Of a stretch of 64,000 nt of DNA, positions 2,415 through 18,111 are shown piece after piece (within the stretch, counting starts at the first letter, position 1; each line of letters opens with the position of its first letter). The position numbers were made by a program, and so were the translations under genes. The notes beneath the pieces were generated by a model. That model was given only the letters and a program-made list of their open reading frames with translations, made no database searches and was not told the DNA's origin. This stretch comes from Marmoricola sp. OAE513. Lineage in GTDB: Bacteria; Actinomycetota; Actinomycetes; Propionibacteriales; Nocardioidaceae. The stretch lies in contig NZ_JBEPOC010000001.1 of assembly GCF_040546585.1 (NCBI RefSeq), positions 1,054,001 through 1,118,000 of the forward strand. Reading direction: 5' to 3'.

Positions 2415-3140
2415 ATGAAATCCACAACTCACCGCGGAGCCGTTCCTCCGCTGACGACCGGTGTGGTTCTAGCCACCCTGGTCCTGCTCATGTCCGTTTA
2501 CCCAGCGCGAGCCGGAGCAGCAGTACCCGCCTGCATCGCAAACGGCGACTACGGTGCGATGGTCACCGTCGAAGACGTGAACGGACCCGCCAACGATGAT
2601 TCCCGGGGTACCCGCTCGGACATGTACGTCTCGTCGGTCTCGACGTTCTGCCAAAGAGTCTCGTCGGTCTACGTCCAGGATCCGATCAGCGAAAGCGGCA
2701 TGGAATTCGGATGGGTCGTCGGCTACAGCCAGTGTGACGGCCAGACCTACTCCGTGCCGACTTTGTTCTACTGGGCGCAGCGAAACGGCGCGAAGTTGTC
2801 GTGCAACGTCTTCCACACGCGCCACCCGACGACGTACGACACGTTCGAGGTCTCCAACACCAACGCGAACAACTACTGGGGCGTTTACACGAACGGCACT
2901 TCGCTGCTTCCGAATGGCGCTGGCCTCGGCTTCAGCAAGGGGTATTCGCTGACCGGTACCGAACGTGGGTCGTCCCAGGACCCTGGCTCAGCCGTTTGGA
3001 ACGACCTTCAGGAGTTTCACGATGGGTCACCGGGTGATCACTGGAGCGCTTGGGACCGGGTCCAGCTCAACTACGACCACGATCCCACCTACCACTTTCA
3101 CAGCACGAACAGCTTCAGCGCGTCGTCGGTCCACGACTAG
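2415..3140 (+). CDS. Secreted protein of unknown function, 241 aa
   Basis: I do not recognise the family. The N-terminus has a typical Sec signal peptide: basic residues, a hydrophobic stretch at about residues 15-30, then Ala-x-Ala-like cleavage sites near residue 34-36. The mature part is rich in Ser, Thr, Asn and aromatic residues, has several cysteines that could form disulfides, and ends in a His/Asp-rich region ('DHDPTYHFHS'), so metal or carbohydrate binding is possible but unproven. The codons are less GC-biased than in the flanking mfd and pst genes, which suggests recent acquisition. The second small secreted-protein gene follows after 14 bases, probably co-transcribed. Confidence 0.75.
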   Translation: MKSTTHRGAVPPLTTGVVLATLVLLMSVYPARAGAAVPACIANGDYGAMVTVEDVNGPANDDSRGTRSDMYVSSVSTFCQRVSSVYVQDPISESGMEFGWVVGYSQCDGQTYSVPTLFYWAQRNGAKLSCNVFHTRHPTTYDTFEVSNTNANNYWGVYTNGTSLLPNGAGLGFSKGYSLTGTERGSSQDPGSAVWNDLQEFHDGSPGDHWSAWDRVQLNYDHDPTYHFHSTNSFSASSVHD

Positions 3141-3154: not shown

Positions 3155-3721
3155 ATGAAGACCCACCTCGCAACGCCAGGACGTGTCGCAGTACTCGGAA
3201 TCGCCTCAGTAACGGTCGGCATGGGCATCTTGATCAATGCCTCAGCAACTTCATCCCCGTCGTCATCACCCACCGTTCGGCCTGCCACGTCCAGCAGCGA
3301 CTACGCCGCCATGGAGGTTGACCGAAAGAATCCGTGCCCTGAGTCCCGTCAGGCTCCCTCTCTGGACGACCTGGTTCAAGACGGGCGAGCACTTCAGACG
3401 AAGGCGTTCAAACCCACGATGACAGCTGTCTGCGGAACCAAGCCGGTAGTTGGCTACGGGGACATCACCGTCACCTACGAGGACGGCTGGGCCAAGACCG
3501 ACGGTGACCGCTACTGGCGGGAACTGGCAGAGACCGCAGACGAGCGCGTGACCACCGTTGCGGGTCGGACTGCCTACCTGGGTGACGCCGACAGTCCTGG
3601 CGAACTGAACTCTGTCGAGTTCATCGTTGGCGATCTCGCTGTCACGTTGATCGCGGAAGCAGACGTACCAATCAAGGAGCTCCTCGCGCTCGCGAACGAC
3701 CTCGAGCTGCCTACCCCGTAG
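3155..3721 (+). CDS. Secreted or membrane-anchored protein of unknown function, 188 aa
   Basis: Not recognised. The ATG at 3155 was chosen because it gives a clean N-terminal signal or anchor segment ('VAVLGIASVTVGMGILI') right after the preceding gene's stop at 3140; the same frame remains open further upstream, but that part overlaps the neighbour. After a Ser/Thr/Pro-rich linker there is a compact domain of about 140 residues with two cysteines (one in 'NPCPES', one in 'AVCGTK'). The 3' end overlaps the convergent transglycosylase gene by 11 bases. Composition resembles the preceding gene. Confidence 0.75.
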   Translation: MKTHLATPGRVAVLGIASVTVGMGILINASATSSPSSSPTVRPATSSSDYAAMEVDRKNPCPESRQAPSLDDLVQDGRALQTKAFKPTMTAVCGTKPVVGYGDITVTYEDGWAKTDGDRYWRELAETADERVTTVAGRTAYLGDADSPGELNSVEFIVGDLAVTLIAEADVPIKELLALANDLELPTP

Positions 3722-4481
3722 CCCGCTCCGCGTAGCTGTTCGCCGCGGCCAGCACGTTCAGCACGTACTGGTTGTCGTGGTTGTAGGAGTGCACCGCGCC
3801 GCTCCATCCGGTCGGCGTACGGAGGTCGTGATCATCAGCGCAGAGGTAACGCGCGGCCGTGTACGCCGCGTCGTCGAGGTCCAGCGGGTCGGCGACGCCG
3901 TCGCGGTCACCGTCGGCTCCCCAGCGGTCCCAGGTCGACGCGATGAACTGGAGCGGGCCGACGGCGTGCTCCCAGGTCGTGTCACCGTGCCACTGCGCGG
4001 ACTGCGGTGTCGACCGGATCGCAGCGAACTGCTTGCCGTCCAGGGCAGGTCCGATGATCGGCGTCGAGGTCCGGCCGTCCTCGGTGACCGTGCGGTCGTC
4101 GATGGTGCCGTGGTGCGACTCGACCCAACCGATGCCGGCGAGGGTGTTCCAGGACAGGTGGCAGCCCTTCTGCTCCTTGTCGATCCGGAGCTCGGCGCTG
4201 CCGTAGGCGAGCATCGCGCGGGCCGGGATGCCCACCTGGGCGCCGGTGCTCGCGGCCCAGGCGGGGTCGACGCCAGCGGGGAGAGCCTTCCGCTCCGAGC
4301 TGCGGCTGACGTTGTTCGCGGGCGGCACCACCGGGGCGGCCTGCGGGGCAGGCTCGTAGGTGAGGTCGTCAGGGACCGTGGCGCCACCACCGGCTGTGAC
4401 GATGAAGATGCCGAGCCCGACGAGAACGACGAGCACGGCACCGAACACCGCGAACCCCAGCCGGGGATGGCTTCCGATCAC
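3711..4481 (-). CDS. Membrane-anchored lytic transglycosylase
   Basis: A 256-residue protein with one N-terminal membrane helix (about residues 8-30), a Pro/Ala-rich linker and a lysozyme-like lytic transglycosylase domain of the actinobacterial MltB/GH103-like type. The catalytic glutamate is expected in 'GIGWVESHHG', and the 'AVGPLQFIASTWDRW' and 'YTAARYLC' motifs are family signatures. It cleaves peptidoglycan glycan strands outside the membrane. The GTG start overlaps the pstB stop as GTGA, so it is translationally coupled to pstB and is the last gene of the long phosphate operon. Its role there is unknown; local wall remodelling around a bulky surface uptake system is one idea. Confidence 0.85.
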   Translation of the reverse strand: MIGSHPRLGFAVFGAVLVVLVGLGIFIVTAGGGATVPDDLTYEPAPQAAPVVPPANNVSRSSERKALPAGVDPAWAASTGAQVGIPARAMLAYGSAELRIDKEQKGCHLSWNTLAGIGWVESHHGTIDDRTVTEDGRTSTPIIGPALDGKQFAAIRSTPQSAQWHGDTTWEHAVGPLQFIASTWDRWGADGDRDGVADPLDLDDAAYTAARYLCADDHDLRTPTGWSGAVHSYNHDNQYVLNVLAAANSYAERATG

Positions 4482-5386
4482 CCGAAGCGTCCGTTGACGT
4501 AGTCGCTGGTGCGCTGGTCCTGGGGGCTGCCGAACATGGCACGGGTGTCACCGTGCTCCACGATCACACCGGGCGTCCCGTGCGAGGCGAGGAAGAAGGC
4601 GCACTGGTCGGAGACCCGCGCTGCCTGCTGCATGTTGTGCGTCACGATGACGATTGTGACCTCTCGGGCAAGCTCGAGCATGGTTTCCTCGATAACTCGC
4701 GTCGAGGTGGGGTCCAGGGCCGAGCACGGCTCGTCCATGAGCAGGACCCGCGGCTTGATCGCCAGCGAGCGGGCGATGCAGAGACGCTGCTGCTGTCCAC
4801 CGGACAGACCGCCACCCGGGGCGTCCAGCCGGTCGCGGACCTCGACCCACAGGCCGGCCTTGGTCAAGCAGGACTCGACCAGCGCGTCACGCTCGTCCTT
4901 CGAGGCCTTGGTCCCGGTCAGCTTGAGGCCGGCCAGCACGTTCTCGGAGATCGACATCGCCGGGAAGGGGTTCGGCTTCTGGAAGACCATGCCGATCGAG
5001 CGGCGGGCGTCGGTGAGCTTGCGGTCCGGACTGTAGATGTCCTCGCCGTCGAGCAGCACCTCGCCGGCCAGCTGGGCCGACGGGACGAGCTCGTGCATCC
5101 GGTTGAGGATGCGGAGGAACGTCGACTTGCCACAGCCCGACGGCCCGATCAGCGCGGTGATGCCACCGGCCGGCATGGTCAGCGAGACGCGGTCGAGAAC
5201 CAGGCGGTCCCCGAACCAGGCAGAGATGTTGTTCGCGCGGAGCTCGGCCAGCGGCGCGACCGGGCCTTCCGGCACGAAGGGATCGCGGACCTCGGCGAGG
5301 TCCCCGATCGGAGCCAGCGGCTGGCTCGGGATCGGCGCGGGAGCGCCGGCGGCGGGGAACACAGCGGTCGGGTCTTCGAAGGTCAT
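4478..5386 (-). CDS. pstB: Phosphate ABC transporter ATP-binding protein PstB
   Basis: This ATPase drives high-affinity phosphate import through PstC and PstA. Of 302 residues, about 45 at the N-terminus are a Pro/Ala-rich extension beyond the usual PstB length. The ABC domain follows, with Walker A GPSGCGKST at 81-89, signature LSGGQ at 194-198, Walker B LLMDEP at 215-220 and an H-loop 'THNMQQA'. The 'GDTRAMFGSP' C-terminal region is typical of PstB. It is separated from the upstream binding-protein gene by about 98 bases containing a strong hairpin, and it overlaps the following transglycosylase gene. Confidence 0.95.
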   Translation of the reverse strand: MTFEDPTAVFPAAGAPAPIPSQPLAPIGDLAEVRDPFVPEGPVAPLAELRANNISAWFGDRLVLDRVSLTMPAGGITALIGPSGCGKSTFLRILNRMHELVPSAQLAGEVLLDGEDIYSPDRKLTDARRSIGMVFQKPNPFPAMSISENVLAGLKLTGTKASKDERDALVESCLTKAGLWVEVRDRLDAPGGGLSGGQQQRLCIARSLAIKPRVLLMDEPCSALDPTSTRVIEETMLELAREVTIVIVTHNMQQAARVSDQCAFFLASHGTPGVIVEHGDTRAMFGSPQDQRTSDYVNGRFG

Positions 5387-5410
5387 CTCTGTCTCGTCTC
5401 TCCTGAGGAA

Positions 5411-5460
5411 GTGGCGGGTCGGGCGCTGGACGCAGTGCGCTCCGCGGGCCGACCCGCCAC
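5411..5460 (-). promoter_or_regulatory. Intercistronic hairpin between binding-protein gene and pstB
   Basis: GTGGCGGGTCGG at 5411-5422 is perfectly complementary to CCGACCCGCCAC at 5449-5460, a 12-bp stem around a GC-rich 26-base loop. No T-run follows. Its place inside the operon, after the Ig-repeat binding-protein gene, suggests an mRNA-stabilising or attenuating element that sets different levels for the binding proteins and PstB. This is inference. Confidence 0.55.
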
Positions 5461-5484
5461 CTCACGGGTGGTGCTGGGTGGTGC

Positions 5485-7338
5485 CTACTTCTGGGTGATG
5501 GTGAAGGTCTTGACCTTCGCCACCGTGTTGGCCGAGCCGCCGTAGACGATCGTCAGGGTCTTCTTGCCCTTCTTCAGCTTGGCCAGCGTGATGGTGACCT
5601 TGCCGTTGACCAGGGTGCCCTTGCCGACGACCTTGGAGCCCTGCTTGATCACGATCGAGCCGGCCGCCTTGAGCGTCGAGCCGGCGATCGCCACGGTGAC
5701 GGTGCCCTTGCCCTTCTTGCCCTTGGCGACCTTGGCCGGGAACGTCTCGGCGACGGTCAGGTTGGAGGCCTTCGCGACGACGACGTTCTTGTTCAGCGTG
5801 CCCGCGCCGTTGGCGGTGTCACCGGCGTAGGTCACGTTCAGGACCTTGGTGCCAGCCGTCAGGGCTGCCGACGCCGGGACCGTGAAGGCGGCCTTGCCGG
5901 TGCCGTCGAGGGCCTTGGTGCCCAGGACGACCGAGCCGAGCTTCGCGGTCACGTTGCCGGTCGGGACGCCGGCCGGCGAGGTGATCGTGACCGACGCGAC
6001 GCCGGCCTTGCCGTAGGTGATCCCGTTGGCGACGGCCCCCACGACGGCGACCTCCTTGACCGTGACGTTGGCCTCGCCGGAGACCGAGTCGGTGAACGCC
6101 GCCGGGTTACCGGAGGTGAACTTCGCGGTGTAGATGTGGGAGCCGGGGGTCACGTTCGACAGGTTCAGCGTGGCCTGGCCACCGGTGAGGACACCGGAAC
6201 CGACCTTGTTGCCACCCTCGAAGAAGTCCAGGTCGCCGTCGGCGTTCTGGCCGTCAGCGGCCACCGTCGCGGTGAGCGTGACCTTGCGACCCGGGGCGGG
6301 GGCGCTGGCGACGATCGAGGTGGAGGTGGTCACCGTGTTGGTGGTGAAGTTGCTGACCGCGGTCGTGGTGCCCTGGCCGCAGACGCCACCGTTGGCGACG
6401 GTGGCCAGCTGCGCGAAGCCGCGGGCCTCGATGATCGCCTTGCCGGCGGTCGAGCAGAAGAAGCCACCCGTGCCGAAGATGTCGGTCACCCACTGGGAAC
6501 CGGTGTCAGCATTGCGGACGACGTTGTAGACCGCGCGCTTGGCCGAGTAGCCGGGCTCGAACTTGATCACGGACGGGTTGGTCAGCGTCTGGGCCCGGGC
6601 CGTCGAGAACGGGGCGATCGCGTTCGGGTCACCCTGGATCTGGTCGGCGTTGTGCTCCTGGACCTCGGTGACGCCGCTGTAGCCGCCGCCCGCTGCCGGG
6701 TAGACGACCGCGACACCGCCGTTGGCGGCCTTGAGCTCGGCCTCGAAGAAGCTGCGCGTGCCCGAGCCCGACTGCGGGATCTTCGGGTTGATGAACGAGC
6801 CGGAGAACGACGGGTTGATGTCGCTCCACTTCTTGTAGGTGCCCTTGTAGATGTCGACGATCTGGGCGATCGTCAGGCTCGCCGGGGCGTTGGACGGGGT
6901 GTTTCCGGACACGGCCATCTTGAGGCCGTCGACGGCGAACGGGTACTGGGTCAGCTCGGCCTGCTCCGCGGTGCTCAGCGTCGAGGAGGACCGGGCGAAG
7001 TTGACGTCCACGTTGTTGCCGGCGCCGAACAGCGTGGCCTTGCCCTGGCCCGAGCCGTTCGGGCGGGCGACCGCGGTGTGTCCGCTGCGCAGCACGATGG
7101 TCGAGGGCTGCGGGGTCGCGTCGAAGCTTGCGATCTTCTGGTTCGGGTGGCTGGTGTTCCACGCGTTCGCGAGGTCACCGACGACGAACTCGATCGTGTC
7201 CGAGCCGACACCGACGATGTCGGTCGCGGACGGGTCACCAACGGGGTCGGCCGTGGCGGGCGCCATGGCCGTCAGAGCGAGGCCGGAAGCGAGCAGGGCG
7301 CTCGCGGCGATGCCGGCGCTGTACTTGCGTACGTTCAT
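5485..7338 (-). CDS. Secreted PstS-like binding protein with three C-terminal Ig-like repeats
   Basis: This 617-residue protein starts at the ATG at 7338, with AAGGA ten bases upstream. A signal peptide (about 1-31) is followed by a periplasmic-binding-protein-type domain (about 35-340) carrying a PstS-like anion loop 'SGSGTRSFF' and 'SLTIAQIVDIYKG'. Three bacterial Ig-like repeats of about 90 residues each then follow; the last is lysine-rich ('AKGKKGKGTV', 'AKLKKGKKTL'). There is no LPXTG signal and no terminal membrane helix, so it is secreted or held by wall or charge interactions. It sits in the pst operon between the sortase-like gene and pstB. Phosphate or phosphate-containing polymers are likely ligands (inference). 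Confidence 0.85.
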   Translation of the reverse strand: MNVRKYSAGIAASALLASGLALTAMAPATADPVGDPSATDIVGVGSDTIEFVVGDLANAWNTSHPNQKIASFDATPQPSTIVLRSGHTAVARPNGSGQGKATLFGAGNNVDVNFARSSSTLSTAEQAELTQYPFAVDGLKMAVSGNTPSNAPASLTIAQIVDIYKGTYKKWSDINPSFSGSFINPKIPQSGSGTRSFFEAELKAANGGVAVVYPAAGGGYSGVTEVQEHNADQIQGDPNAIAPFSTARAQTLTNPSVIKFEPGYSAKRAVYNVVRNADTGSQWVTDIFGTGGFFCSTAGKAIIEARGFAQLATVANGGVCGQGTTTAVSNFTTNTVTTSTSIVASAPAPGRKVTLTATVAADGQNADGDLDFFEGGNKVGSGVLTGGQATLNLSNVTPGSHIYTAKFTSGNPAAFTDSVSGEANVTVKEVAVVGAVANGITYGKAGVASVTITSPAGVPTGNVTAKLGSVVLGTKALDGTGKAAFTVPASAALTAGTKVLNVTYAGDTANGAGTLNKNVVVAKASNLTVAETFPAKVAKGKKGKGTVTVAIAGSTLKAAGSIVIKQGSKVVGKGTLVNGKVTITLAKLKKGKKTLTIVYGGSANTVAKVKTFTITQK

Positions 7339-7382
7339 CTCTACGTGATCCTTAGGTTGGGTGGTGCGTTGTTGTCGGGGTG

Positions 7383-8321
7383 TCACATCAGGTTCGGCAG
7401 AAGCCGGACGACCTGGTCCGTGGTGAACCAGGACAGGGCGATCGCGAGTGGTGAGGCGATCACCCACACAAGGGGTGCCGACCAGCGCTGGCGGGCAGCG
7501 ATGACGGCGATGGTGAGGCCGGTGAGCAGCGCGAGGCCCAACGCGAGCATCGGGAGCGCACCCGGGGTGCCCTCCATCGCCAGCTCGGACTTCGGTACGC
7601 CGACGGGGCGGCCCGAAGGCACCTGCTGTCCGGTCTCGGAGACGGCGTCGACGTAGACCGCGTCGCTCGGGCGCAGCTGGTGCAGGAAGCCCGTGCCCTC
7701 TGCGGTGACCAGCGTGAGCCGAGCGGCGCCGGCCTCGGGCGCGGTGACCTGGTCGCCGGCGCGGCGGATGCCCTCGACCACGAACGTGGTCTTGGCCTGG
7801 CCGGTCTGGGTGACGATCTTGTCGCCGACCTTCAGCGTGTCCAGGTCCGCGAACGGCTTGCCGTAGGTGGCCGAACGGCCGTACACGTAGGACGTGCCGA
7901 CCTGACCAGGGATGACCGAGTCGCGGCGGTGGCCGGGACCTGCCTGCATGTCGCCGGACGCGGTGCCCTCCACGACGACCTGCTGGACGTCGAGCTTCGG
8001 GATGGTCAGCACGGCGACCGGCTTGCCCGGTGTGATGACCGGTCCGAGCGGCGCTGTCGCCTCGGCGACCTGGGTGCGGAACTGACCGTAGAGGATGTGC
8101 TGGTCGCGGGCCTGGCTGAAGCCGCTGAGCACCAGCACCTGCAGGAGGAACCAGACGCTGATCAGGGCCAGCATCGTGCAGACCGAGGACACCATCGCGA
8201 CGACCTCGGTCGCCTCGCCGGGGCGGATCTCGACCGGACCTGCCGTCTTCACCCGGGCGCCGCCCTTGGGGGACGACGGCGGCGTCGGCGGGCTCGTCGG
8301 AGGCGTCATCGTGGCCGTCAC
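7383..8321 (-). CDS. Catalytically dead class-E sortase-like membrane protein
   Basis: Of 312 residues, about 40-67 form an N-terminal membrane helix, about 100-228 a class-E sortase fold, and about 252-305 two C-terminal helices. The fold is shown by 'IPKLDV', 'GPGHRRDSVIPGQVG', 'YVYGRSATYGKPFADLDTL' and 'RLTLVT'. In active enzymes the second block reads as AGHRTTYG and the last as LTLTTC. Here Arg149 replaces the catalytic His, Ala207 the nucleophilic Cys, and the usual Arg near the end is replaced in 'SDAVYVDA'. It therefore should not transpeptidate; a structural or binding role is likely. The GTG at 8321 was chosen because it overlaps the upstream stop as GTGA; a GTG at 8330 is an alternative. 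Confidence 0.85.
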   Translation of the reverse strand: MTATMTPPTSPPTPPSSPKGGARVKTAGPVEIRPGEATEVVAMVSSVCTMLALISVWFLLQVLVLSGFSQARDQHILYGQFRTQVAEATAPLGPVITPGKPVAVLTIPKLDVQQVVVEGTASGDMQAGPGHRRDSVIPGQVGTSYVYGRSATYGKPFADLDTLKVGDKIVTQTGQAKTTFVVEGIRRAGDQVTAPEAGAARLTLVTAEGTGFLHQLRPSDAVYVDAVSETGQQVPSGRPVGVPKSELAMEGTPGALPMLALGLALLTGLTIAVIAARQRWSAPLVWVIASPLAIALSWFTTDQVVRLLPNLM

Positions 8322-10891
8322 TTGACCCACCGCTGCTGCAGCGCGAGCCGGGAGAAACCGCTGACGACTCCGCCGACGATCGCGATCAGCAGGAGCGTCG
8401 GGAGCAACCAGCTGGTCAGGTCCGAGGACGCCTTCGTGGTCCTGGCGACGGCCAGCGGCGCACCCGAGACGACCGGAACCGCACCGTCGGGACCAGCACC
8501 TTGCGGGGCACCCGCCACCGGCGTACCGACCCCCGGGACCACGGCGCTGCCGCCGACCGGGCCGGAGGCGGACGGCGGGGTCACCGCGGGAGCAGCCGCG
8601 GTCTTCTGCGCCTTGACGGCTTTGGCGACCACCTGGGCGCTGTCGTAGAACGGCTTGGTCGGACCGGAGGCCACGATCGGCAGGTAGCCCTCGGGCAGCT
8701 GGCCGTTGGCTCGGCCCGGCCGCTGGCCCTCGGTGCTGGAGACCTTGATGAACTGCGCGACCTTGGCCGCGTCCGCCTTCGGGACGCCCGAGAGCCGGGC
8801 TGCGGTGTAGACGATCATCGTGCCCGGGTACGCCGTCGAGCTCCTTGCCAGGCGCGAGCTCGGGATCTCGAACGGCGCGTACTTCTTGCCCTCCTTGGCC
8901 AGCGCCACAGCGGCGCGCATGCCTGCCTGGGTCGGGCCGACGTACCTGCCCCCGGCCACGGCGAGGCTGGCGGTCCGCAGGCCGAACCGCTCTGCGTCGC
9001 CCAGGGTGGTGACGCCGAACAGGAGCCGGCTGCCGACACCCTGGCGGTCGATGCGGCCGAGCTTGAACGGGTCACCGGGGTTGGGCCGGTCGCACTTGGT
9101 CTGCACCAGCGGCCAGGAGTCGAGCACCGCGGAGGCGATCTGGCGCAGGCTGCTCACCGGGGCAGCGACCTGCGGCAGGTACGGCGCCGGGTTGGCCTTG
9201 AGGCACTCCAGGTCGCTCTTCGGAACGTAGGTGTCGAGCAGCGGCCACTCCGCGCGCGGCAGCGTGATCTTCTTGTAGAAGGGGTTGACCTTCATGCCCC
9301 ACGGGTCCGCTGCGCCGTTGACGAAAGCCATCGCGCTCCTGTCACGGGCGATGTAGCCGGTCAGCGCGGTGATCACGTCCGAGGAGGTCGACAGCGACAT
9401 CAGGGTGGCACCCGCCTCCTGGGAGATGTTGCTCAGGCCGGGGTTGAGCTTCTTGAACTCCGGGTCGTTGTTGATCGACAGCGGGTTGGAGCCCATCCCC
9501 GGGTGGCCGGTGCCGAGCTGCGAGGCGGCGTACGACTGCGTCAGCAGCTTGGCGATCAGGCGCGGGGTGAGCTTGAGGTCGGTGAGCTCGCCGGCGTTGT
9601 CCGGCTTGTCGACGACGTAGCTGATCGCGAACCCGGTGATCGCCGTCGGCGCGTAGCCGATCGGGTTGGTCGTCTCGGCAACCCGCGGGCCGGACACCTC
9701 GGCAGCGACCGCCGCCCCGTTCTCCATCTGCGAGAAGGCGGCGTCGTCGGGCATCGAGTTCTGCTGCCACTTGAACCGGTCCTTGCGCAGGCAGTACGCC
9801 GGCGCCCACTGCGTCGCAGCCTGGGAGAGCAGCTCGGAGCCGTAGAACGGGGTCGGCGCGCGCGAGTCGAGGATGTCGCAGGCGCTCGGCGGCAGGCCGA
9901 AGGTGATCGGCGCGCTGAACCGGTTCTTCCAGTTCGACTCGGCCCACCAGTACAGCGGTGAGACCGACGCGTCGACGCCGAGGTTCGCGAAGTTGCTGGT
10001 GCCCGGCAGGAACTGGCCGGCGCGACGGCAGTTGCGGTCGGCCGCGGCCAGGTCCGGGTTCTTGTCGACGCAGCTGAGGCCCATGATCGGGATCACCACG
10101 ATCGAGCAGGCGACCTTGTCCGAGCAGCCCAGGGACTCGTTCTCCACCGCGCTGCGGACCTCGAACTCGGTGCTCCCGGTGCCGTCGGTGCTGGTGAACG
10201 CCGACTGCTCGGCCGGCGGGAAGGACGAACCGACGGCGGCCTCGGGCGGCATCGTCGCGGACGTGCAGCCCTTGAACGTCTCCCCCTTGGCGGTGACGAA
10301 GGGCGTGACGTGGGCGAAGGACGTCTCCGAGGTGTCGTTGCACGCCTCGCCCGGGTACGGCAGCAGGCCGCTCTTGGGCTGACGGGTGGCCTCGTCGGCG
10401 AACAGGTCGCGGGTCCAGATCGCGGCGCCCGGGTCCTGGACCTGCGACCGCTGGATCTTGGTCGAGGTCCAGCAGGTCTCCGGCGACAGCCGCTTGGCCT
10501 TCGGCAGGTCGGCGTCGTCGGTGCCGCGACACTGCAGGATCACGACCGGGTACTCCTGGTTGAGTCCGGCCTCGCCGAAGGGGTTGGATGCCCGTCCGCC
10601 GCTGGGGTGGGCACCGGACCAGGAGATGTGCACGCGCTCGCGGCCCTGAAGGTTCTTCGTGGTGTCGATCTTGACGTTGACGTCCCGGGAGTCGATCTCG
10701 CGAACGACGCCGTCGTCGGAGAACTCCCGCTTGATCGTCTTCGTCTTGCTGTAGCCGTCGCCGGTCGACGTCGCCGTCGCGACCAGGCCGGTCGCGGTCG
10801 CGGGGACGACCGGGATCATCGCGGCGGCGAGCAGCACCGCACCGCCGGCGAGGCCGAGGCGGATCAGCGGGCGCTTCCCAGGAGTCATCAC
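8318..10891 (-). CDS. Large membrane-anchored extracellular binding-protein-like protein of the pst operon, 857 aa
   Basis: A signal peptide (about 1-35) precedes a very large extracellular region with several cysteines. The middle (about 390-560) resembles a substrate-binding-protein domain ('NPIGYAPTAITGFAISYV', 'LTPRLIAKLLTQSY', 'DRSAMAFVNGAADPWG'). A Pro/Ala/Gly-rich linker (about 745-820) leads to one membrane helix near 826-845 and a short basic tail. No PstS-type SGT loop is visible, so ligand binding is uncertain. It has GTGA-type overlaps with the PstS gene before it and the sortase-like gene after it, so the three are translationally coupled. N-terminal domain function is unknown. 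Confidence 0.75.
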   Translation of the reverse strand: MMTPGKRPLIRLGLAGGAVLLAAAMIPVVPATATGLVATATSTGDGYSKTKTIKREFSDDGVVREIDSRDVNVKIDTTKNLQGRERVHISWSGAHPSGGRASNPFGEAGLNQEYPVVILQCRGTDDADLPKAKRLSPETCWTSTKIQRSQVQDPGAAIWTRDLFADEATRQPKSGLLPYPGEACNDTSETSFAHVTPFVTAKGETFKGCTSATMPPEAAVGSSFPPAEQSAFTSTDGTGSTEFEVRSAVENESLGCSDKVACSIVVIPIMGLSCVDKNPDLAAADRNCRRAGQFLPGTSNFANLGVDASVSPLYWWAESNWKNRFSAPITFGLPPSACDILDSRAPTPFYGSELLSQAATQWAPAYCLRKDRFKWQQNSMPDDAAFSQMENGAAVAAEVSGPRVAETTNPIGYAPTAITGFAISYVVDKPDNAGELTDLKLTPRLIAKLLTQSYAASQLGTGHPGMGSNPLSINNDPEFKKLNPGLSNISQEAGATLMSLSTSSDVITALTGYIARDRSAMAFVNGAADPWGMKVNPFYKKITLPRAEWPLLDTYVPKSDLECLKANPAPYLPQVAAPVSSLRQIASAVLDSWPLVQTKCDRPNPGDPFKLGRIDRQGVGSRLLFGVTTLGDAERFGLRTASLAVAGGRYVGPTQAGMRAAVALAKEGKKYAPFEIPSSRLARSSTAYPGTMIVYTAARLSGVPKADAAKVAQFIKVSSTEGQRPGRANGQLPEGYLPIVASGPTKPFYDSAQVVAKAVKAQKTAAAPAVTPPSASGPVGGSAVVPGVGTPVAGAPQGAGPDGAVPVVSGAPLAVARTTKASSDLTSWLLPTLLLIAIVGGVVSGFSRLALQQRWVK

Positions 10892-12513
10892 GGCTGCGCC
10901 TTCGACGTCGCGGCGCGGCGGCTGTAGGCGACGTACATGCCGGGCAGCAGCACGAGCGCGAGCAGGAGCAGGATGGCGACGAAGCCGAACGCCTTGTTGT
11001 CGCCGTCACGGGTCGGCACCAGCTCGGCCGGCGTACCGATCAGGTCGGCGTTCGCGGTCGCGATGTTGGGATCGACGACACCGTTCCCGGTGGCTGCTCC
11101 GGTACCTGTTCCCGTCCCGGTCCCGGGGCCCGTACCGGTTCCGGTGGTCGCGCCGGTGCCTGTTCCCGTGCCCGTCCCGGTACCGGTTCCCGTGCCGCTT
11201 CCGGTGTCCGTCGACGGAGCGCCCGTGCCGGTCGCGGTGCCGCACGGGCCTGCCCCCGACTTGTCGCAGGCGGCCGGCTTCGGGGCGATCTCGGCGAGGT
11301 GGTTGCGCGAGAGGTTGCCCTTCACGAAGGTCGGGTTGTTGCACGCGGTCACCGAGCGGTTGGTGAGGTCGACCTTGGGGTCGGCCGCCTTCAGCCTGGC
11401 GATCTGCTGGAACCCGGCCTGCACCAGGTTGAGCGGCAGCGGCGAGTAGCCGTAGCCGCCGGCCTTCGTCTGACCGGTGCACAGCGAGTAGTACATGAAG
11501 TCGGCGAGCGACTGGCGCTTCGCGGTCGTCATCCGTCGGTCCGACTTCGACGTCGGGATGATCATGTAGGAGTACGACGAGAGCGGGTACGCCCGCGGGT
11601 CGCTGGCCTTGTAGACGCCGTCGAGGATCTGGGTCAGGTAGTCCGGTGAGCTCTTGTTCTGGTTGATCTTCGCCTTGGTCAGCGCGACGGCGACGTTGTA
11701 CTGCGTCGGCTCGACGTAGTACCCGCCCTTGTTGAGGACCTTGACCACCGGGTAGTGCGCGTTGAGCGGGTAGGAGTACTCGACGTACCCGATGGTGCCG
11801 TTGCCGGCCGCGCCGGAGATCGTGTTCATCACCTGGTCCGAACCCGCGGCCGCGATCATCCGCCCCTTCTTCGGGAAGTACGACGTGAGGCCGCTCTTGC
11901 CGAAGTACGGGCGCCAGATGCTGGGGTACATCGAGTCGAGGTACTTGGTGAACTGGGCCGTGGTACCGGATCCGTCCGAGCGGATGACCGGGGTGATCGG
12001 CAGCGACGGCAGCGGCTTGCCGTTGTTGTCGGCGGTGATCGCCTTGTCGTTCCAGTTCGTGATCTTGTTGGTGAAGATCTTCGCGATCGTCTCTCCCGAG
12101 AGACGCAGCGTCTTGACCGGCTTGCCGCCGACCTTGACCTGGTAGGTGAACGCGGTACCACCGGCGACGATCGGCAGGTAGGCGTAGTCGCGACCGTTGC
12201 TGGAGTCGGCCTGCCCCTGCTCGTCCTTGCCCTGGTAGGGGATCTCGGAGACGGCGAAGTCGGTGACGCTGTTCGCGAAGTCCTTGCGACCCTGCGACGA
12301 ACCGCCACCGTTGTAGGTCACCTTGATGCCCGACGCGTCGACGTCGGAGATCCACTGGGTGAGGATCACCTGCGACCAGGTCGAGCCGGAGCCCTCGATC
12401 TGCGCGTAGCTCGCGGCGTTGGCCGGAGCTGCGCCACCGATGGACGCGACCAGGGTCAGGATCATGCCGGCGAAGCCGAGCTTGACCGCGTTGGAGGACG
12501 AGGGGCGCTTCAC
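10888..12513 (-). CDS. pstS: Phosphate-binding protein PstS, membrane-anchored through a Thr-Gly stalk
   Basis: This 541-residue protein has a signal peptide (about 1-33) and a full PstS domain (about 34-410). The phosphate loop 'RSDGSGTTAQF' and the N-terminal 'GSGSTWSQVI' are clear. A spacer with cysteine pairs follows, then a stalk of Thr-Gly dipeptides (about 430-475), and a hydrophobic helix (about 507-527) with a basic end. Actinobacterial PstS proteins are usually lipoproteins; this one lacks a lipobox and seems anchored by the C-terminal helix. It overlaps pstA and the next binding-protein gene by four bases (GTGA). Phosphate is the expected ligand. Confidence 0.92.
   Translation of the reverse strand: MKRPSSSNAVKLGFAGMILTLVASIGGAAPANAASYAQIEGSGSTWSQVILTQWISDVDASGIKVTYNGGGSSQGRKDFANSVTDFAVSEIPYQGKDEQGQADSSNGRDYAYLPIVAGGTAFTYQVKVGGKPVKTLRLSGETIAKIFTNKITNWNDKAITADNNGKPLPSLPITPVIRSDGSGTTAQFTKYLDSMYPSIWRPYFGKSGLTSYFPKKGRMIAAAGSDQVMNTISGAAGNGTIGYVEYSYPLNAHYPVVKVLNKGGYYVEPTQYNVAVALTKAKINQNKSSPDYLTQILDGVYKASDPRAYPLSSYSYMIIPTSKSDRRMTTAKRQSLADFMYYSLCTGQTKAGGYGYSPLPLNLVQAGFQQIARLKAADPKVDLTNRSVTACNNPTFVKGNLSRNHLAEIAPKPAACDKSGAGPCGTATGTGAPSTDTGSGTGTGTGTGTGTGTGATTGTGTGPGTGTGTGTGAATGNGVVDPNIATANADLIGTPAELVPTRDGDNKAFGFVAILLLLALVLLPGMYVAYSRRAATSKAQP
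11092..11215 (-). repeat. Degenerate Thr-Gly codon repeat in pstS
   Basis: The minus strand is an imperfect hexanucleotide array (ACC/ACG GGA/GGC/GGT) encoding a run of Thr-Gly dipeptides with occasional Ala, Pro and Ser interruptions. It forms the flexible stalk between the PstS domain and its anchor. Synonymous codons vary, so the array is protein-selected, but its length may still vary among strains. Confidence 0.8.
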
Positions 12514-13670
12514 TGGGAATCTCTCATTCGTTGGACGAGGCCGGAGACCCGGCTCGGCTTCGTGGTCCGCTGGCGTGCCAGCGCCCGAGCGATCACGAAG
12601 AGGACGAGGACGAGGATCAGCAGCACCGAGGCCGCCCCGAAGGCGCGCTCGATGGCGATCGGCTCACCGCTGCGCACGGTGGAGTAGATGTAGAGCGGCA
12701 GCGAGTTCATGACACCGTCGGTCGGGTTGGTCACCAGGAAGCTGGCGGCACCCGAAGTGAGCAGCACCGGAGAGGTCTCCCCGATGCCGCGGGCGATGCC
12801 GAGGATCAGCGCGGTGGCCAGTCCCGGTCGGGCGGTCGGCAGGACGACGTGCCAGACGGTCTTCCAGCGAGAGGCACCGAGCGCGAGGCTGGCCTCGCGC
12901 AGGCCGCCCGGCACGACGCGGAGGACCACGTCGGCGGCGCGGGCGATGATCGGGAGCATCATCACGCCGAGCGCGAAGGCGGCGCAGATGCCGGAACGCG
13001 GAAAGCCGAGACCGATGATCATCACCGTGTAGATGAAGAGGCCGGCGACGATCGAGGGCAGTGCGGTCATGGCCTCGACGACGGTGCGCACGACCTTGGC
13101 GAACTTGCCGCCGATCTCGGTCATGAACACCGCGGTGCCGATGCCGAGCGGGATCGTGATGACGGTCGCGATGCCGACCTGGATCAGCGAGCCGACGATG
13201 GCGTGCAGGATGCCACCCTTGGTGAAGGGGTCGCGTGGACCGACACCGGCGGAGTCCTCGAAGAAGAAGTTCCAGTGCAGCAGCGGCTTGTAGCCCTGCT
13301 TGAACACGTAGATCAGCGTCGAGGCGAGCGCGAAGCCGACGATCAGCGTGCCGGCCGTGACGAAAGCGGTGGCGACCCGGTCGCGGACCTCGATCGCCGA
13401 GCCCGTCATCGCGGCGGTGATGCCGGTGATCACGACGCCCATGACGAAGCCGACGATGAGGAACCAGGTCAGCCCGCCCGCGGGCAGCAGTCGCTGGGTG
13501 ATCACCCAGGAGAGGGCGAACCCTCCCGCCCACGACCCGATCTGGGTGAAGCGGTCCTCGGGGTTGGCGGCACGCAGACCGCTGCGCGGCACCGGCGGCG
13601 GGGCGTCGTCGTTCGGCACGGGGAGCGACGTCGCCCCCAGCGGCATCGCCGGGTCGATCATGGAGGTCAT
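12510..13670 (-). CDS. pstA: Phosphate ABC transporter permease PstA
   Basis: This 386-residue inner-membrane permease forms the phosphate channel with PstC. The N-terminal 80 residues are an extra segment with a Pro-rich start and two hydrophobic helices. The six-helix core follows, with the ABC-permease EAA-type motif near 'GLREASLALGASRWKTVWHVVLP' and 'GIGETSPVLLTSG', typical of PstA. Start and stop are tightly coupled: the ATG shares one base with the pstC stop (TGATG), and the stop overlaps the pstS GTG start. Confidence 0.95.
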   Translation of the reverse strand: MTSMIDPAMPLGATSLPVPNDDAPPPVPRSGLRAANPEDRFTQIGSWAGGFALSWVITQRLLPAGGLTWFLIVGFVMGVVITGITAAMTGSAIEVRDRVATAFVTAGTLIVGFALASTLIYVFKQGYKPLLHWNFFFEDSAGVGPRDPFTKGGILHAIVGSLIQVGIATVITIPLGIGTAVFMTEIGGKFAKVVRTVVEAMTALPSIVAGLFIYTVMIIGLGFPRSGICAAFALGVMMLPIIARAADVVLRVVPGGLREASLALGASRWKTVWHVVLPTARPGLATALILGIARGIGETSPVLLTSGAASFLVTNPTDGVMNSLPLYIYSTVRSGEPIAIERAFGAASVLLILVLVLFVIARALARQRTTKPSRVSGLVQRMRDSQ

Positions 13671-14680
13671 CAGGCGTCCGTCCCGGCGCCCGAGCGGCTG
13701 CGTTGGACCACGATCGCGGCCAGGGTGTTGATGATCAGGGTGATCACGAAGAGCACGAAGCCGGCCGTGAGCAGGGCCGAGAGCTGCGAGTCGCTGGCCT
13801 CGCCGAAGCGGCCGGCGATGAGGGCGGAGATCGTGCTGGTGCCGATCTCGAGCACCCGCGGCTTCACCTCGAAGGAGGGCGAGATGATCAGCAGGACCGC
13901 GATGGTCTCACCGAGCGCGCGGCCCAGCGCGAGCATGGTGCCGCCGATGATGCCGCCCCGACCGAACGGGATGACGACCGTCTGGATCATGCCCCAGCGG
14001 GTGGAGCCGAGCGCGAGCGCCGCCTCCTTCTCCCCCGGAGGCGTCTGCGAGAAGACCTGGCGCATCACGGCGCAGGCCATCGGGAGCACCATCATCGCGA
14101 CGGCCAGGCCGGCGCAGAACGCCGAGGCGGTGTAGCGCGAGCGGTCCCAGATGGCGGCGTCGGGGTTGGCGTCGACGTCGAAGAACGGGATCCAGCCGAA
14201 GTGCTTCTGCAGGAAGAGCGCGACCTCGCTCGCGTGCGGCTGCAGGAGGAAGAACCCCCAGAGGCCGTAGACGATGCTGGGCACGGCGGCCATCAGGTCG
14301 ACGAGCGCGACCAGCGTCGACTTCAGCCGGGCCGGGGCGAACTCGCTGATGTAGAGGGCCGTGGCCAGGGCCAGGGGGAAGGCGACGATCAGCGCGACCA
14401 TGGCGACCGAGAACGTGCCCACCAGGACAGCTCCGATGCCGAGCACGTCGGTGTCCGGGGACCACTGGGTCTCGGTGAAGAAGGACAGCCCGTAGTGCTT
14501 GAGGGTCGGCACCGACTGCAGCGCCAGGAAGAGGCCGATGCCTCCGGTGATCAGGAGGACTGTCGCACCGGTGGACCGGGCGACGTAGGCGAAGATTCGG
14601 TCCGACCCCGTGTTGGTCGAAGCCAGGGTGCGCGGGACCGCAGGCTCAGTCTGCGGTTCCTCGCTGGCGAGGATCGTCAC
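13670..14680 (-). CDS. pstC: Phosphate ABC transporter permease PstC
   Basis: The first gene of the operon encodes a 336-residue membrane permease, partner of PstA. About six to seven helices are visible, and the EAA loop 'EKEAALALGSTRWGMIQ' and 'LGRALGETIAVLLI' are characteristic. An N-terminal cytoplasmic tail of about 35 residues precedes the first helix. The start is a GTG with AGGGG eight bases upstream. The PHO-box-like repeats at 14746-14786 lie about 70-105 bases upstream, so phosphate-limitation control by PhoP is likely. Confidence 0.95.
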   Translation of the reverse strand: MTILASEEPQTEPAVPRTLASTNTGSDRIFAYVARSTGATVLLITGGIGLFLALQSVPTLKHYGLSFFTETQWSPDTDVLGIGAVLVGTFSVAMVALIVAFPLALATALYISEFAPARLKSTLVALVDLMAAVPSIVYGLWGFFLLQPHASEVALFLQKHFGWIPFFDVDANPDAAIWDRSRYTASAFCAGLAVAMMVLPMACAVMRQVFSQTPPGEKEAALALGSTRWGMIQTVVIPFGRGGIIGGTMLALGRALGETIAVLLIISPSFEVKPRVLEIGTSTISALIAGRFGEASDSQLSALLTAGFVLFVITLIINTLAAIVVQRSRSGAGTDA

Positions 14681-14745
14681 TCGTTCTACCCCTGTCGGTC
14701 ACCTACTGGTCGGGATCAATGTCCGGAACGAGAGCGGCCAATCAG

Positions 14746-14786
14746 GGGGAACAAGGTGAACGACGGGCGAACAGTGGCGGACGAAC
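14746..14786 (-). promoter_or_regulatory. PHO-box-like direct repeats upstream of pstC
   Basis: Reading the minus strand, four GTTC-anchored units occur in series: GTTCGTCCG, GTTCGCCCGTC, GTTCACCTT and GTTCCCC. Two adjacent units are spaced exactly 11 bases, and GTTCACC matches the core of the streptomycete PhoP box (GTTCACCCGGC direct repeats). The site precedes the whole pst operon, so binding by PhoP is the obvious inference. Confidence 0.6.
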
Positions 14787-14796
14787 GGTGTGAGAC

Positions 14797-15204
14797 CTAG
14801 GGGGCAGGGGCACCCTGGGCGATCTGCTCCAGGCTGCGCAGGATGCAGAACTCGTTGCCCTCCGGGTCCGCCAGCACGATCCAGCCGATGCCCGGTGCGT
14901 GGTGGTCGCCCTGGTCGTCGACGATCGTGGCGCCGAGCGACACTGCCCAGGCGACCTCCTCGTCACGGGTGCGCTCGACCGGACGCAGGTCGAAGTGCAT
15001 CCGGTTCTTGGTCTGCTTGCTGTCCGGTGTCTCGATGAACAGCACCTGGTGACCGCCGTCCGGCCGCTGGATCATGCACTCCTCGTGCCCGGGAAGGTTG
15101 GGGTCGCCCTCGATGTCGACGTACCCGAGCAGCTGCTTCCACCACTCGGAGAGCTCGTAGGCGTTCCTGCAGTCGATGGTGGTGTGCGAGATGAACGACG
15201 TCAC
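14797..15204 (-). CDS. VOC (glyoxalase/bleomycin-resistance) family protein
   Basis: This 135-residue protein has two vicinal-oxygen-chelate repeats. Residues 1-65 include 'TTIDCRNAYELSEWWKQLLG' and residues 75-130 include 'RMHFDLRP' and 'WIVLADPEGNEFCIL', the usual actinobacterial form. The substrate cannot be told; such proteins act as dioxygenases, lyases or antibiotic-binding proteins. The GTG at 15204 was chosen because AGGAG stands five bases upstream. It lies just downstream of glpD on the same strand, with an 8-base gap, so co-transcription is likely. The pst PHO-box region begins beyond its stop. Confidence 0.85.
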   Translation of the reverse strand: MTSFISHTTIDCRNAYELSEWWKQLLGYVDIEGDPNLPGHEECMIQRPDGGHQVLFIETPDSKQTKNRMHFDLRPVERTRDEEVAWAVSLGATIVDDQGDHHAPGIGWIVLADPEGNEFCILRSLEQIAQGAPAP

Positions 15205-15212
15205 TGCTTCTC

Positions 15213-16922
15213 CTAGCCTGCCCAGGGACCTTCCGGCGCCTGGACCCGGGCCTCGTCGGCTTCCTGGTCGGTGAGCTTCTCCTGACTCTGCCGCTCGGCC
15301 TCGACGCGGCGCAACCAGTGATCGACCTCCTCCTCGAGCCGGGACCGGTCCCACCCGAGGACGCCGCCCATCAGCTCGGCGACCTGCTGAGCCGCGAGCG
15401 TGCCGCGGTCGAAGGTCTCGATCGAGATCCGCGTACGGCGGGCAAGCACGTCGTCGAGGTGGCGAGCTCCTTCGTGGGTGACCGCGTAGACGACCTCGGC
15501 CCCGAGGTAGTCCTCAGCGTGGATGAGCGGCTCGGCGAGCGAGGGGTCCTCGATCATCAGGTCGAGCAGCTCGTCGACCATGCCGCCGTACCGGCCGAGC
15601 AGGTGATCGATGCGCGCGAGGTGCAGCCCCGAGGTACGGGCCAGCGTCGCGCGCTGGTTGGTACGGGTCTCGAACCCGTGCGCCCCGAGCAGCGGAACCC
15701 GGTCGGTGATGCTCGGGCGGGCTCCCCCCTCCAGCGTCTTCGCGGCCACGTCGACCGCGTCCTTGGCCATCACCCGGTACGTCGTCAGCTTGCCGCCGGC
15801 GATCATCACCAGGCCGGGCACGGGGGCGACCACGGTGTGCTCGCGGGAGATCTTCGAGGTCGGCTCGGTCTCACCCTTGAGCAGCGGGCGGAGACCGGCG
15901 TAGACGCCCTCGACGTCGTCGTGGTCGAGCGGGTCGCGCAGAAGGGTGTTCACGTGACCGAGGACGTAGTCGATGTCGGCACGTGAGGCGGCCGGGTGGG
16001 CGAGGTCGAGGTCCCACGGGGTGTCGGTGGTGCCGATGATCCAGTGCCGGCCCCACGGGATCACGAAGAGCACCGACTTCTCGGTCTTGGTGATGAACCC
16101 GGTCTCGGAGCGGATCCGGTCCTTCGGCACGACCAGGTGGATGCCCTTGCTGGCCTCGACCTTGAGCGCGCCCTTGCCGCCGACGAGCTCCTGGATGCCG
16201 TCAGTCCAGACGCCGGCCGCGTTGATGACGACGCGGGCGCGGACCTCGTAGCTGACGTCGTCCTCGAGGTCGCGGATCGTCGCCCCGACGACCCGTTCGC
16301 CCTCGCGCAGGAACCCGGTGACCTGGGTGCGCGAGGCCACGTGCGCGCCGTACGCCGCGGCGGTGCGCGCGACGTTCATCACCAGCCGGGCGTCGTCGAC
16401 CTGGCAGTCGTAGTAACGGATCGCGCCGGTGAGGTTCTCGGTGCGCAGGTCCGGCGCCATCCGGGCGATCTGGCGGCGGAAAAGGTGCTTGTGCTTGGGC
16501 ACGCCCATCTCGTACTTGCCGGCCATCGCCATGCCGTCGTACAGCGCGAGGCCGGCGCCGACGTACGGGCGCTCCCAGGTGTGGTGCAGCGGGTAGAGGA
16601 ACGGCACCGGCCGGACCAGGTGCGGCGCGAGCCGGGTCAGCAGCAGACCGCGCTCCTCCAGCGCCTCGCGGACCAGGCCGAAGTCGAACATCTCCAGGTA
16701 GCGCAGGCCGCCGTGGACGAGCTTGCTGCTGCGGCTGCTGGTGCCGCTGGCGAAGTCGCGCTGCTCGACGATCGCCGTCGAGAGCCCGCGGGTGACCGCG
16801 TCCAGCGCGACGCCGACACCGACGACTCCCCCGCCGACGACGAGGACGTCGAGCTCGTGGTCCGACATCCCTTTCAGCGCAGCCGCGCGCGAGTGCGGTC
16901 CGAGGTCTGCGGTCAGGGCCAT
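15213..16922 (-). CDS. glpD: Glycerol-3-phosphate dehydrogenase (FAD)
   Basis: It oxidises glycerol 3-phosphate to dihydroxyacetone phosphate and passes electrons to the respiratory chain at the inner membrane face. The 569 residues show the FAD dinucleotide fold 'DVLVVGGGVVGVGVALDA', the family motif 'ASGTSSRSSKLVHGGLRYLE', 'VINAAGVWTD' and 'GGKLTTYRVMAKDAVD', and a C-terminal DAO_C-like helical domain, so length is normal. A small inverted repeat (CTGTCA/TGACAG) lies between guaB3 and this gene. Confidence 0.95.
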   Translation of the reverse strand: MALTADLGPHSRAAALKGMSDHELDVLVVGGGVVGVGVALDAVTRGLSTAIVEQRDFASGTSSRSSKLVHGGLRYLEMFDFGLVREALEERGLLLTRLAPHLVRPVPFLYPLHHTWERPYVGAGLALYDGMAMAGKYEMGVPKHKHLFRRQIARMAPDLRTENLTGAIRYYDCQVDDARLVMNVARTAAAYGAHVASRTQVTGFLREGERVVGATIRDLEDDVSYEVRARVVINAAGVWTDGIQELVGGKGALKVEASKGIHLVVPKDRIRSETGFITKTEKSVLFVIPWGRHWIIGTTDTPWDLDLAHPAASRADIDYVLGHVNTLLRDPLDHDDVEGVYAGLRPLLKGETEPTSKISREHTVVAPVPGLVMIAGGKLTTYRVMAKDAVDVAAKTLEGGARPSITDRVPLLGAHGFETRTNQRATLARTSGLHLARIDHLLGRYGGMVDELLDLMIEDPSLAEPLIHAEDYLGAEVVYAVTHEGARHLDDVLARRTRISIETFDRGTLAAQQVAELMGGVLGWDRSRLEEEVDHWLRRVEAERQSQEKLTDQEADEARVQAPEGPWAG

Positions 16923-16957
16923 GCAGCCAGTCTGTCAGGAGGACGTGACAGGCAGGG

Positions 16958-18064: not shown

Positions 18065-18111
18065 CCGTGGATCCTACTTGTGAGCGGCGCCAGGCGTGGC
18101 GCAGGCGTCGC

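Follow-up and report, generated by a model that had tools for sequence, protein, structure and literature searches.

Layout of the operon

In the window, the 64,000-nucleotide stretch of the Marmoricola sp. OAE513 genome analysed here, the minus strand encodes eight genes from position 14680 down to 3711, and a check of the translations confirmed that all of them are present. The features are as follows (bit scores are given against family cut-offs).

14755..14772, minus strand: PHO-box-like direct repeat, exact match (GTTC..C twice, 11-nt spacing)
13670..14680, minus strand: pstC, permease, 336 aa; above the cut-off of the NCBIfam equivalog TIGR02138 (255.9 vs 196.45)
12510..13670, minus strand: pstA, permease, 386 aa; above the cut-off of the NCBIfam equivalog TIGR00974 (225.1 vs 193.45)
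10888..12513, minus strand: pstS-like receptor, 541 aa; PF12849 (167.7 vs 27), TIGR00975 just under cut-off (195.3 vs 205), alignment with solved PstS, pocket residues, anchor
8318..10891, minus strand: P857, 857 aa; structure model, Foldseek and profile searches to PstS
7383..8330, minus strand: pseudosortase, 315 aa (start possibly 8309); PF04203 (63.8 vs 26.6), model and Foldseek, residue counts, same-genome sortase control
5485..7338, minus strand: IgPBP, 617 aa; PF16640 (89.3 bits, three stretches), TIGR02136 below cut-off (7.9e-14), charge
4478..5386, minus strand: pstB, ATPase, 302 aa; TIGR00972 just under cut-off (333.9 vs 343.2)
3711..4481, minus strand: lytic transglycosylase, SLT_2 type, 256 aa; PF13406 above cut-off (26 vs 24.3), conserved motif Glu

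Five of the seven junctions overlap, namely pstC/pstA (1 bp), pstA/pstS (4 bp), pstS/P857 (4 bp), P857/pseudosortase (13 bp) and pstB/transglycosylase (4 bp), in agreement with the same-strand run of mostly overlapping genes described in the earlier note. Gaps of 44 bp and 98 bp separate the pseudosortase from IgPBP and IgPBP from pstB, respectively. If the pseudosortase starts at the ATG at 8309, four of the seven junctions overlap. Between 3400 and 14900, no internal promoter or terminator sites were found on the minus strand, and terminator-like sites on the plus strand numbered 2 vs 3.3 expected. Joint control of the inner genes would rest on the overlaps and on one PHO-box-like site before pstC. 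A role in anti-phage defence was rejected, as PADLOC gave only cross-matches of the PstB ATPase.

The earlier note called this locus an enlarged Pst operon. This wording does not hold, because the canonical pstSCAB of the same genome sits elsewhere (locus L038) and the window operon belongs to a Pst-type family of its own, a paralogue of that canonical copy. The two systems share permeases, ATPase, PstS fold, core pocket and PHO-box-like repeat. They differ in that the window operon adds three further envelope proteins, one of which is a dead sortase, and in that PstS of the window family ends in a hydrophobic anchor (111/115 sequences), a lipobox-like match being found in 5/115 (duplicates included in both counts).

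Envelope proteins and the sortase-like protein

The window PstS has a signal-peptide-like start, a PstS domain, a Gly/Thr-rich linker and a C-terminal hydrophobic anchor. P857 reaches no family cut-off in Pfam or NCBIfam profile searches. Its structure model (pLDDT 86.7, pTM 0.82) comprises an N-terminal beta-rich region, a divergent PstS-fold domain at about 324-760 and a C-terminal helix at 823-855. The relation to PstS was found by Foldseek with the model (best E 4.2e-11) and by a profile search from P857 to 1pc3 (4.2e-11); direct comparison of the PstS and P857 profiles gave a weak match (probability 39%, E 3.1e-4). P857 has not kept the pocket loop of PstS. P857 thus models as a membrane-anchored PstS fold. 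In IgPBP, Ig repeats with a Lys-rich end follow a secreted receptor-like domain, and there is no anchor; the start of the protein is more likely at 7338, which gives a signal-peptide-like sequence, than at 7467, the start of the longest ORF. The last 90 residues carry a net positive charge in 69/69 IgPBP sequences, and the pocket Arg position is Pro in 71/75. The earlier claim of anchored as well as secreted receptors is borne out across the family, since a C-terminal hydrophobic stretch also occurs in 111/114 P857 and in 0/77 IgPBP sequences (counts that still contain duplicates).

The pseudosortase model shows a sortase barrel flanked by one helix on the N-terminal side and two on the C-terminal side, in line with three predicted membrane helices, and Foldseek matched the model to 4d70 (E 3.4e-11). 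In the window protein, Arg152 replaces the catalytic His and Ala replaces the catalytic Cys. Among 107 members, with duplicates included and two weak family matches (58 and 29 bits) left out, the His is retained in none (Arg in 104, Lys in 3) and the Cys in none (Ala, Ser, Gly or Val). As a control, eight of the 11 sortase matches in the same genome were compared, six true and two pseudo, and the six true sortases retain both residues. The sortase is therefore dead, as had been proposed. Class E sortases are its nearest described relatives by profile, NF033747 being the best NCBIfam match and the barrel being common to both; however, the pseudosortase scores only 69.5 bits vs a cut-off of 160, and differs from them in its lost catalytic pair and its three predicted membrane helices.

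An active sortase with LPxTG clients was rejected because, besides the loss of His and Cys in the family and their retention in the true sortases, client signals are nearly absent: LPxTG-like ends occur in 1/115 PstS, 3/114 P857 and 0/77 IgPBP sequences, duplicates included. The protein could instead be an enzyme of another kind, in which the fixed Arg and the changed pocket serve a different reaction. That every member has Arg or Lys in place of the His argues for a selected function, but the variable Cys site provides no fixed nucleophile and the scarcity of LPxTG-like ends also speaks against it, so that we regard this reading as highly improbable.

The Glu of the transglycosylase motif GWVESHHG, presumably the catalytic Glu of SLT_2 lytic transglycosylases, is kept in 53/53 family members, and cutting of peptidoglycan by the operon enzyme is plausible. 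The local wall cutting put forward in the earlier note stands to this extent, but the gene is adjacent in only 36/58 window-type cassettes (see below for the types); 20 have none and 2 reach a contig end. Paralog-type cassettes are without an adjacent transglycosylase in 11/12 cases, one of these having the gene one position further, and the twelfth stops at a contig end.

Conservation and co-divergence of the cassette

The non-redundant P857 loci number 105, after removal of 9 duplicates and of 7 loci lacking a called P857 from the 121 processed. The order PstC-PstA-PstS-P857-pseudosortase-IgPBP-PstB is unbroken in 53 of the 105, with the transglycosylase following directly in 31 of the 53. 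The gene order thus recurs in relatives and is not a chance of one genome, and its conservation in Nocardioidaceae was correctly anticipated. Genes of the relatives were called with a simple codon-usage script, and some starts are truncated, for example that of PstS in L037.

Co-occurrence was examined in 45 hand-picked genomes, 25 of 64 that are P857-positive and 20 of 229 that are P857-negative, the latter being genomes in which the window P857, used as the only query, had no match. A pseudosortase (>300 bits) was found in 25/25 positive and 0/20 negative genomes, with a sortase profile that includes sequences from some of the tested genomes and at most 52 candidates scored per genome. Correlations among the tree distances of P857, the pseudosortase (SRT), PstS and PstC range from 0.85 to 0.94, and in each of the four trees a single edge splits the window type from the paralog type. 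These results argue against the idea that the locus is an ordinary second Pst operon containing unrelated surface genes as passengers, as does the finding that the same core genes also stay together in arrangements T2, T3, T4 and T5 and in a Cellulomonas form. Such passengers would fit the lower correlation of PstB with the other cassette proteins (0.63-0.74) and the 24/105 loci classed as other or cut, some of which are rearranged or lack a member. Overall, we consider this explanation improbable.

In a phylum sample, the profile matched at E<=1e-8 in 24/396 genomes, and the match spanned nearly the whole profile in 7 of the 24, the own genome and one relative included. With only seven such matches, the breadth of the family rests on a separate set, in which 379/385 pattern matches were confirmed and the best 80 of these were used.

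A canonical PstS (>360 bits) accompanies the cassette in 19/25 P857-positive genomes and occurs in 15/20 P857-negative ones; a weaker separate match is present in four of the six positive genomes below this score. In view of the 19/25, such cells would not strictly require a further importer of phosphate.

Promoter, binding pocket and possible function

The near edge of the PHO-box-like repeat lies 75 bp before the pstC start, and the canonical pstS is likewise preceded, at 74 bp, by another exact match. The pattern, which was chosen after viewing the window and whose letters follow a Streptomyces consensus, matches the 3.89-Mb genome exactly at 16 sites, against 1 for a reversed-pattern control. 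With duplicates still among the pstC starts, the exact repeat precedes 15/98 of them vs 0/453 other transcription-unit starts, and with up to one mismatch 58/98 vs 12/453. Among de-duplicated loci with a readable pstC upstream region, it precedes pstC in 43/51 of the window type and 0/13 of the paralog type. In Streptomyces coelicolor, a PHO box before pstS is described as two 11-nt direct repeat units (PMC7866108).

The window PstS keeps equivalents of T10, S38, R135, D137, S139, G140 and T141, which together with D56 are presumably the phosphate-binding residues of E. coli PstS (E. coli numbering); D56 is Glu. Arg135, Asp137, Ser139 and Gly140 are kept in 61/61 window-type PstS, and Asp56 is changed to Glu in 59/61, a point against the reading as a phosphate importer. 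In paralog-type PstS, T10 is kept in 0/14 and Arg and Asp are still present in 5/14. The phosphate link proposed earlier is supported by the PHO-box-like repeats together with the PstS pocket. However, promoter and pocket do not always go together, which weighs against the phosphate-importer reading: arrangement T4 has the pocket core in 3/3 and the repeat in 0/3, T3 has them in 5/6 and 2/5, respectively, and in the Cellulomonas form the repeat is present in 1/3.

Our preferred reading, which we hold to be somewhat more probable than its negation, is that the operon is a phosphate-starvation Pst-type importer working with its own surface complex. We infer a single complex of the proteins with phosphate as its ligand, hand-over from one receptor to another, and a role at the wall; inorganic phosphate would be what is transported. 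PstCAB would be the ATP-driven channel, to which PstS, tethered to the membrane on a long flexible linker, would hand phosphate. P857 and the pseudosortase may be membrane-anchored structural subunits that keep the receptors wall-facing, the former sortase groove, whose His site is fixed as Arg or Lys, having become a binding or docking site. Secreted IgPBP would serve as an outer receptor or an outer scaffold piece, its cationic Ig tail retaining it in the anionic wall, and the transglycosylase may open room in the peptidoglycan.

Alternatively, the importer may salvage phosphorylated compounds derived from wall or soil (teichoic acid pieces, phosphate esters) and not free phosphate, with the transglycosylase loosening the wall, IgPBP and P857 binding larger ligands and PstCAB importing the product. 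The changed pockets of P857 and IgPBP, the Glu in PstS, the PHO-box-like site and the transglycosylase adjacent in many window-type cassettes would all suit such a role, as would an inositol-monophosphatase-family gene (PF00459) near 18/105 loci (16/66 of the window type), mostly 1-3 genes from pstC. Yet this gene is not beside the operon in the window and, where it occurs, sits among housekeeping genes (pth, ribosomal L25, mfd), and none of the eight genes belongs to a phosphatase or phosphodiesterase family in Pfam and NCBIfam profile searches; for these reasons the phosphate polymers named as ligand in the earlier note were not borne out either. The glycerophosphate-oxidase-like gene upstream (15213-16922, PF16901) was rejected as a functional neighbour, being beside only one other cassette (L092). 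Since the core inorganic-phosphate pocket is also kept in the window PstS, salvage appears unlikely, although it is the strongest of the alternatives. Among the top 22 neighbour families listed, mfd (22 loci), pth (12), a glyoxalase-like gene (11) and ribosomal L25 (11) also recur, which suggests mostly an old chromosomal site. A glyoxalase-like gene is also present at 14797-15204 in the window.

The complex might also be mainly a sensor or controller of wall remodelling, in which PstCAB, driven by phosphate binding, passes a signal by way of P857 and the pseudosortase on to the transglycosylase, with transport as a secondary task. The canonical PstS found alongside in most positive genomes and the sharing of one operon by a multi-helix pseudosortase and a transglycosylase are compatible with this, but PstC and PstA pass importer cut-offs, and 20/58 window-type and 11/12 paralog-type cassettes have the chassis without an adjacent transglycosylase. 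We therefore give this reading little weight.

Returning to the importer, it may, somewhat more tentatively, represent a new class of surface machinery in actinobacteria, namely an ABC importer of the Pst type on a fixed chassis, in which the sortase fold is an obligatory non-catalytic docking subunit. The window would hold a phosphate version under PHO control, and a sister version, in which the PstS pocket is changed and the PHO box absent, would take another ligand. The chassis in this reading consists of the dead sortase, the giant PstS-fold protein, the anchored PstS and the secreted receptor. If this is true, several Actinomycetota lineages have made a fold known from wall-stitching enzymes into a structural component of a nutrient importer, and such cells own a multi-receptor way of catching phosphate at their surface. 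The two sister versions, which differ in pocket and promoter and often occur in the same or related genomes, would be a natural experiment on the roles of the subunits, and the family labels (sortase, PstS, Ig repeat) would mislead readers of these genomes.

Among the matches listed from open-licence PMC papers, no description of the cluster was found in searches on the cluster, dead sortases and WxL neighbours. To our knowledge, WxL/WxLIP clusters lack Pst transporters. The available part of a Cutibacterium study deals with active-sortase substrates and an ordinary PstSCAB-PhoU, not with this cluster (PMC9723661). Extracellular PstS appendages are described for Pseudomonas aeruginosa (PMC7866108), and the likeness would lie in a PstS that does more at the cell surface than serve transport. 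WxL/WxLIP (DUF916) surface gene clusters are described in two papers (PMC10599100, PMC1534035). None of the eight window proteins has a WxLIP_PGBD match in Pfam, whereas the cassette relatives L075 and L055 have WxLIP_PGBD over the Pfam cut-off; the WxL label in relatives was assigned by eye and with custom profiles, without a Pfam match. In some lineages the proposed chassis would include WxL/WxLIP-type wall proteins as well, and, as in those clusters, Ig-repeat surface proteins are carried by cassette relatives.

Operon structure and the canonical pst genes

The operon in the window consists of pstC, pstA, pstS, the gene of an 857-aa protein (P857), a sortase-fold protein gene, an Ig-repeat receptor gene (IgPBP), pstB and a lytic transglycosylase gene, in this order. 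The PstS, the sortase-fold protein and the receptor, counted from its start at 7338, are 541, 315 and 617 aa long, respectively. As the earlier note described, the same-strand genes are mostly joined by overlaps, found at five of the seven junctions; at the remaining two, the genes are separated by 44 and 98 bp. PstC and PstA passed their equivalog cut-offs, PstB and PstS were slightly below theirs, and no family was assigned to P857 by Pfam or NCBIfam profiles.

14680 to 3711, minus strand: eight-gene set from pstC to the lytic transglycosylase
G000:C1:2643000-2662500, 10069-19501 within the locus: second cassette (L037) of the source genome G000, PstC-PstA-PstS-P857-pseudosortase-receptor-204-aa-type protein

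The set had been taken for an enlarged pst operon. However, the ordinary operon of the 3.89-Mb genome lies elsewhere, as a compact pstSCAB at C1:2.277 Mb (L038), with a PHO4-family transporter and a DUF47 gene close by. The second P857 cassette is located at C1:2.65 Mb. The window PstC scored 387 bits against the PstC of this cassette and only 189 bits against the canonical one; therefore, the cassette proteins are closer to one another than to the canonical set. The system is a known kind of transporter. A targeted literature search, largely without full texts, found no description of its pseudosortase and P857 subunits or its two-version chassis. Next to the operon, two genes for secreted-looking proteins without Pfam or NCBIfam match (2415-3140 and 3155-3721, plus strand) are convergent with it, and an adjoining pair of IMP dehydrogenase-family genes (PF00478) occupies 16958-18064 and 18112-19608 on the minus strand.

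Conservation of the cassette and its pseudosortase

Within the order, P857 had matches in 64/293 genomes, representing 11/37 genera. When named genomes were scanned, 379 of 385 pattern matches were confirmed; the best 80 of these fell in Nocardioides, Aeromicrobium, Mumia, Pimelobacter, Cellulomonas and Janibacter, and also in MAGs labelled Frankiales, Pseudonocardiales, Acidimicrobiia and others. Processing of 121 loci left 105 non-redundant loci with P857. The gene order proved to be conserved in relatives, being complete with the transglycosylase at 31/105 loci and lacking it directly after pstB at 22/105. The remainder comprised a Cellulomonas form with WxL/WxLIP-type genes (3/105), a paralogous form T2 (14/105), three further arrangements (11/105; T3 6, T4 3, T5 2) and other or cut loci (24/105). 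A single edge separates all window-type from all T2 members in trees of P857, pseudosortase, PstS and PstC, and the split holds for 73/74 in the PstB tree. Tree distances of the first four proteins correlate mutually at 0.85-0.94, and each with PstB at 0.63-0.74.

The pseudosortase was called at 97/105 loci, most of the other eight being fragmented or cut by a contig end. Among 45 genomes tested, it exceeded 300 bits in 25/25 P857-positive and 0/20 P857-negative genomes, in which the top profile match at E ≤ 1e-20 was 100 bits. At L129 (Nocardioides sp. B-3), PstS, P857 and IgPBP are each split into two ORFs and no pseudosortase was called, reflecting either decay or sequencing errors.

The description of the sortase as dead was borne out, as both the catalytic His and the Cys are lost in 107/107 members; six true sortases of G000 retain both. 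The His site carries Arg (104/107) or Lys (3/107); Ala occupies the Cys site in 77 members, Ser in 21, Gly in 8 and Val in 1. The model (pLDDT 87.2, pTM 0.78) shows a sortase barrel preceded by one N-terminal helix and followed by two C-terminal helices, and its Foldseek search returned sortases. Because a basic residue is retained at the His site, the pseudosortase is probably under selection for a new role rather than decaying. The 3.9-Mb genome has eleven sortase-family matches, ten above the cut-off, two being pseudosortases.

Receptors and a proposed link to phosphate

The window PstS is alignable with solved phosphate-binding proteins (8ods, 1.2e-30) and retains the core pocket, but with Glu at Asp56. 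In the P857 model (pLDDT 86.7, pTM 0.82), a PstS-fold domain lies between a beta-rich region and a C-terminal helix. The model's top Foldseek match was 1pc3 (E 4.2e-11), which a profile search also matched at 4.2e-11; against 8ods, TM was 0.80 by target length at 14% identity. Compared directly, the PstS and P857 profiles matched weakly (probability 39%, E 3.1e-4); the P857 stretch aligned with the PstS pocket loop RSDGSGTT lacks the Arg. IgPBP retains Ser-Gly-Thr; its pocket Arg is replaced by Pro in 71/75, a conserved Arg occurs in a different loop in 72/75, and the final 90 residues are net positive in 69/69.

A GTTC-type 11-nt direct repeat resembling a PHO box lies 75 bp before the window pstC. 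Sixteen exact copies occur in G000, versus one for a reversed-pattern control; one precedes the window pstC and another lies 74 bp before the canonical pstS. Across loci, the exact repeat precedes 15/98 pstC versus 0/453 other starts (58/98 versus 12/453 with up to one mismatch). Since the one-mismatch pattern shows no excess in the window (6 observed, 5.77 by chance), the weight of the repeat rests on position and exactness. It precedes pstC in 43/51 window-type, 0/13 T2, 1/3 Cellulomonas-form, 2/5 T3, 0/3 T4, 0/2 T5 and 6/15 other or cut loci; at L037, no PHO-box-like match was found before pstC.

R135, D137, S139 and G140 (E. coli PstS numbering) are all retained in 61/61 window-type PstS. 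In T2, T10 is retained in 0/14 and Arg-Asp in 5/14, and the L037 loop reads RADGAGVT. Such a joint change of promoter repeat and pocket between the two types would be expected if phosphate were the ligand of the window type and another compound that of T2. Owing to T3 and T4, which retain the core pocket in 5/6 and 3/3, the promoter-pocket link is not general.

Proposed mechanism and neighbouring genes

For the window operon, we lean towards a phosphate-starvation importer that has a receptor scaffold of its own. The envelope proteins may form a complex in which the pseudosortase would do the docking; phosphate would be the ligand of the importer, and the wall might be opened. WxLIP peptidoglycan-binding domains exceed the Pfam cut-off in relatives L075 and L055 (L042 is weaker, 18 against a cut-off of 27.3), supporting a wall-contacting role for the wider cassette family. 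Larger cassettes with additional WxLIP/WxL-type and Ig-repeat wall proteins occur at L042, L044, L056, L055, L073-L076, L112, L120 and L130, labelled by our own profiles, with Pfam over cut-off for WxLIP at L075 and L055; they resemble a fusion of a Pst system and a WxL-type cluster.

An inositol-monophosphatase-family gene lies near pstC at 18/105 loci (e.g. L101:4315-5109), mostly of window type (16/66 such loci), with none in the window. This neighbour leaves room for organic phosphate, with the odds of the readings unchanged. A serpin-family gene (PF00079) lies near the cassette at seven loci (e.g. L068:3302-4618).
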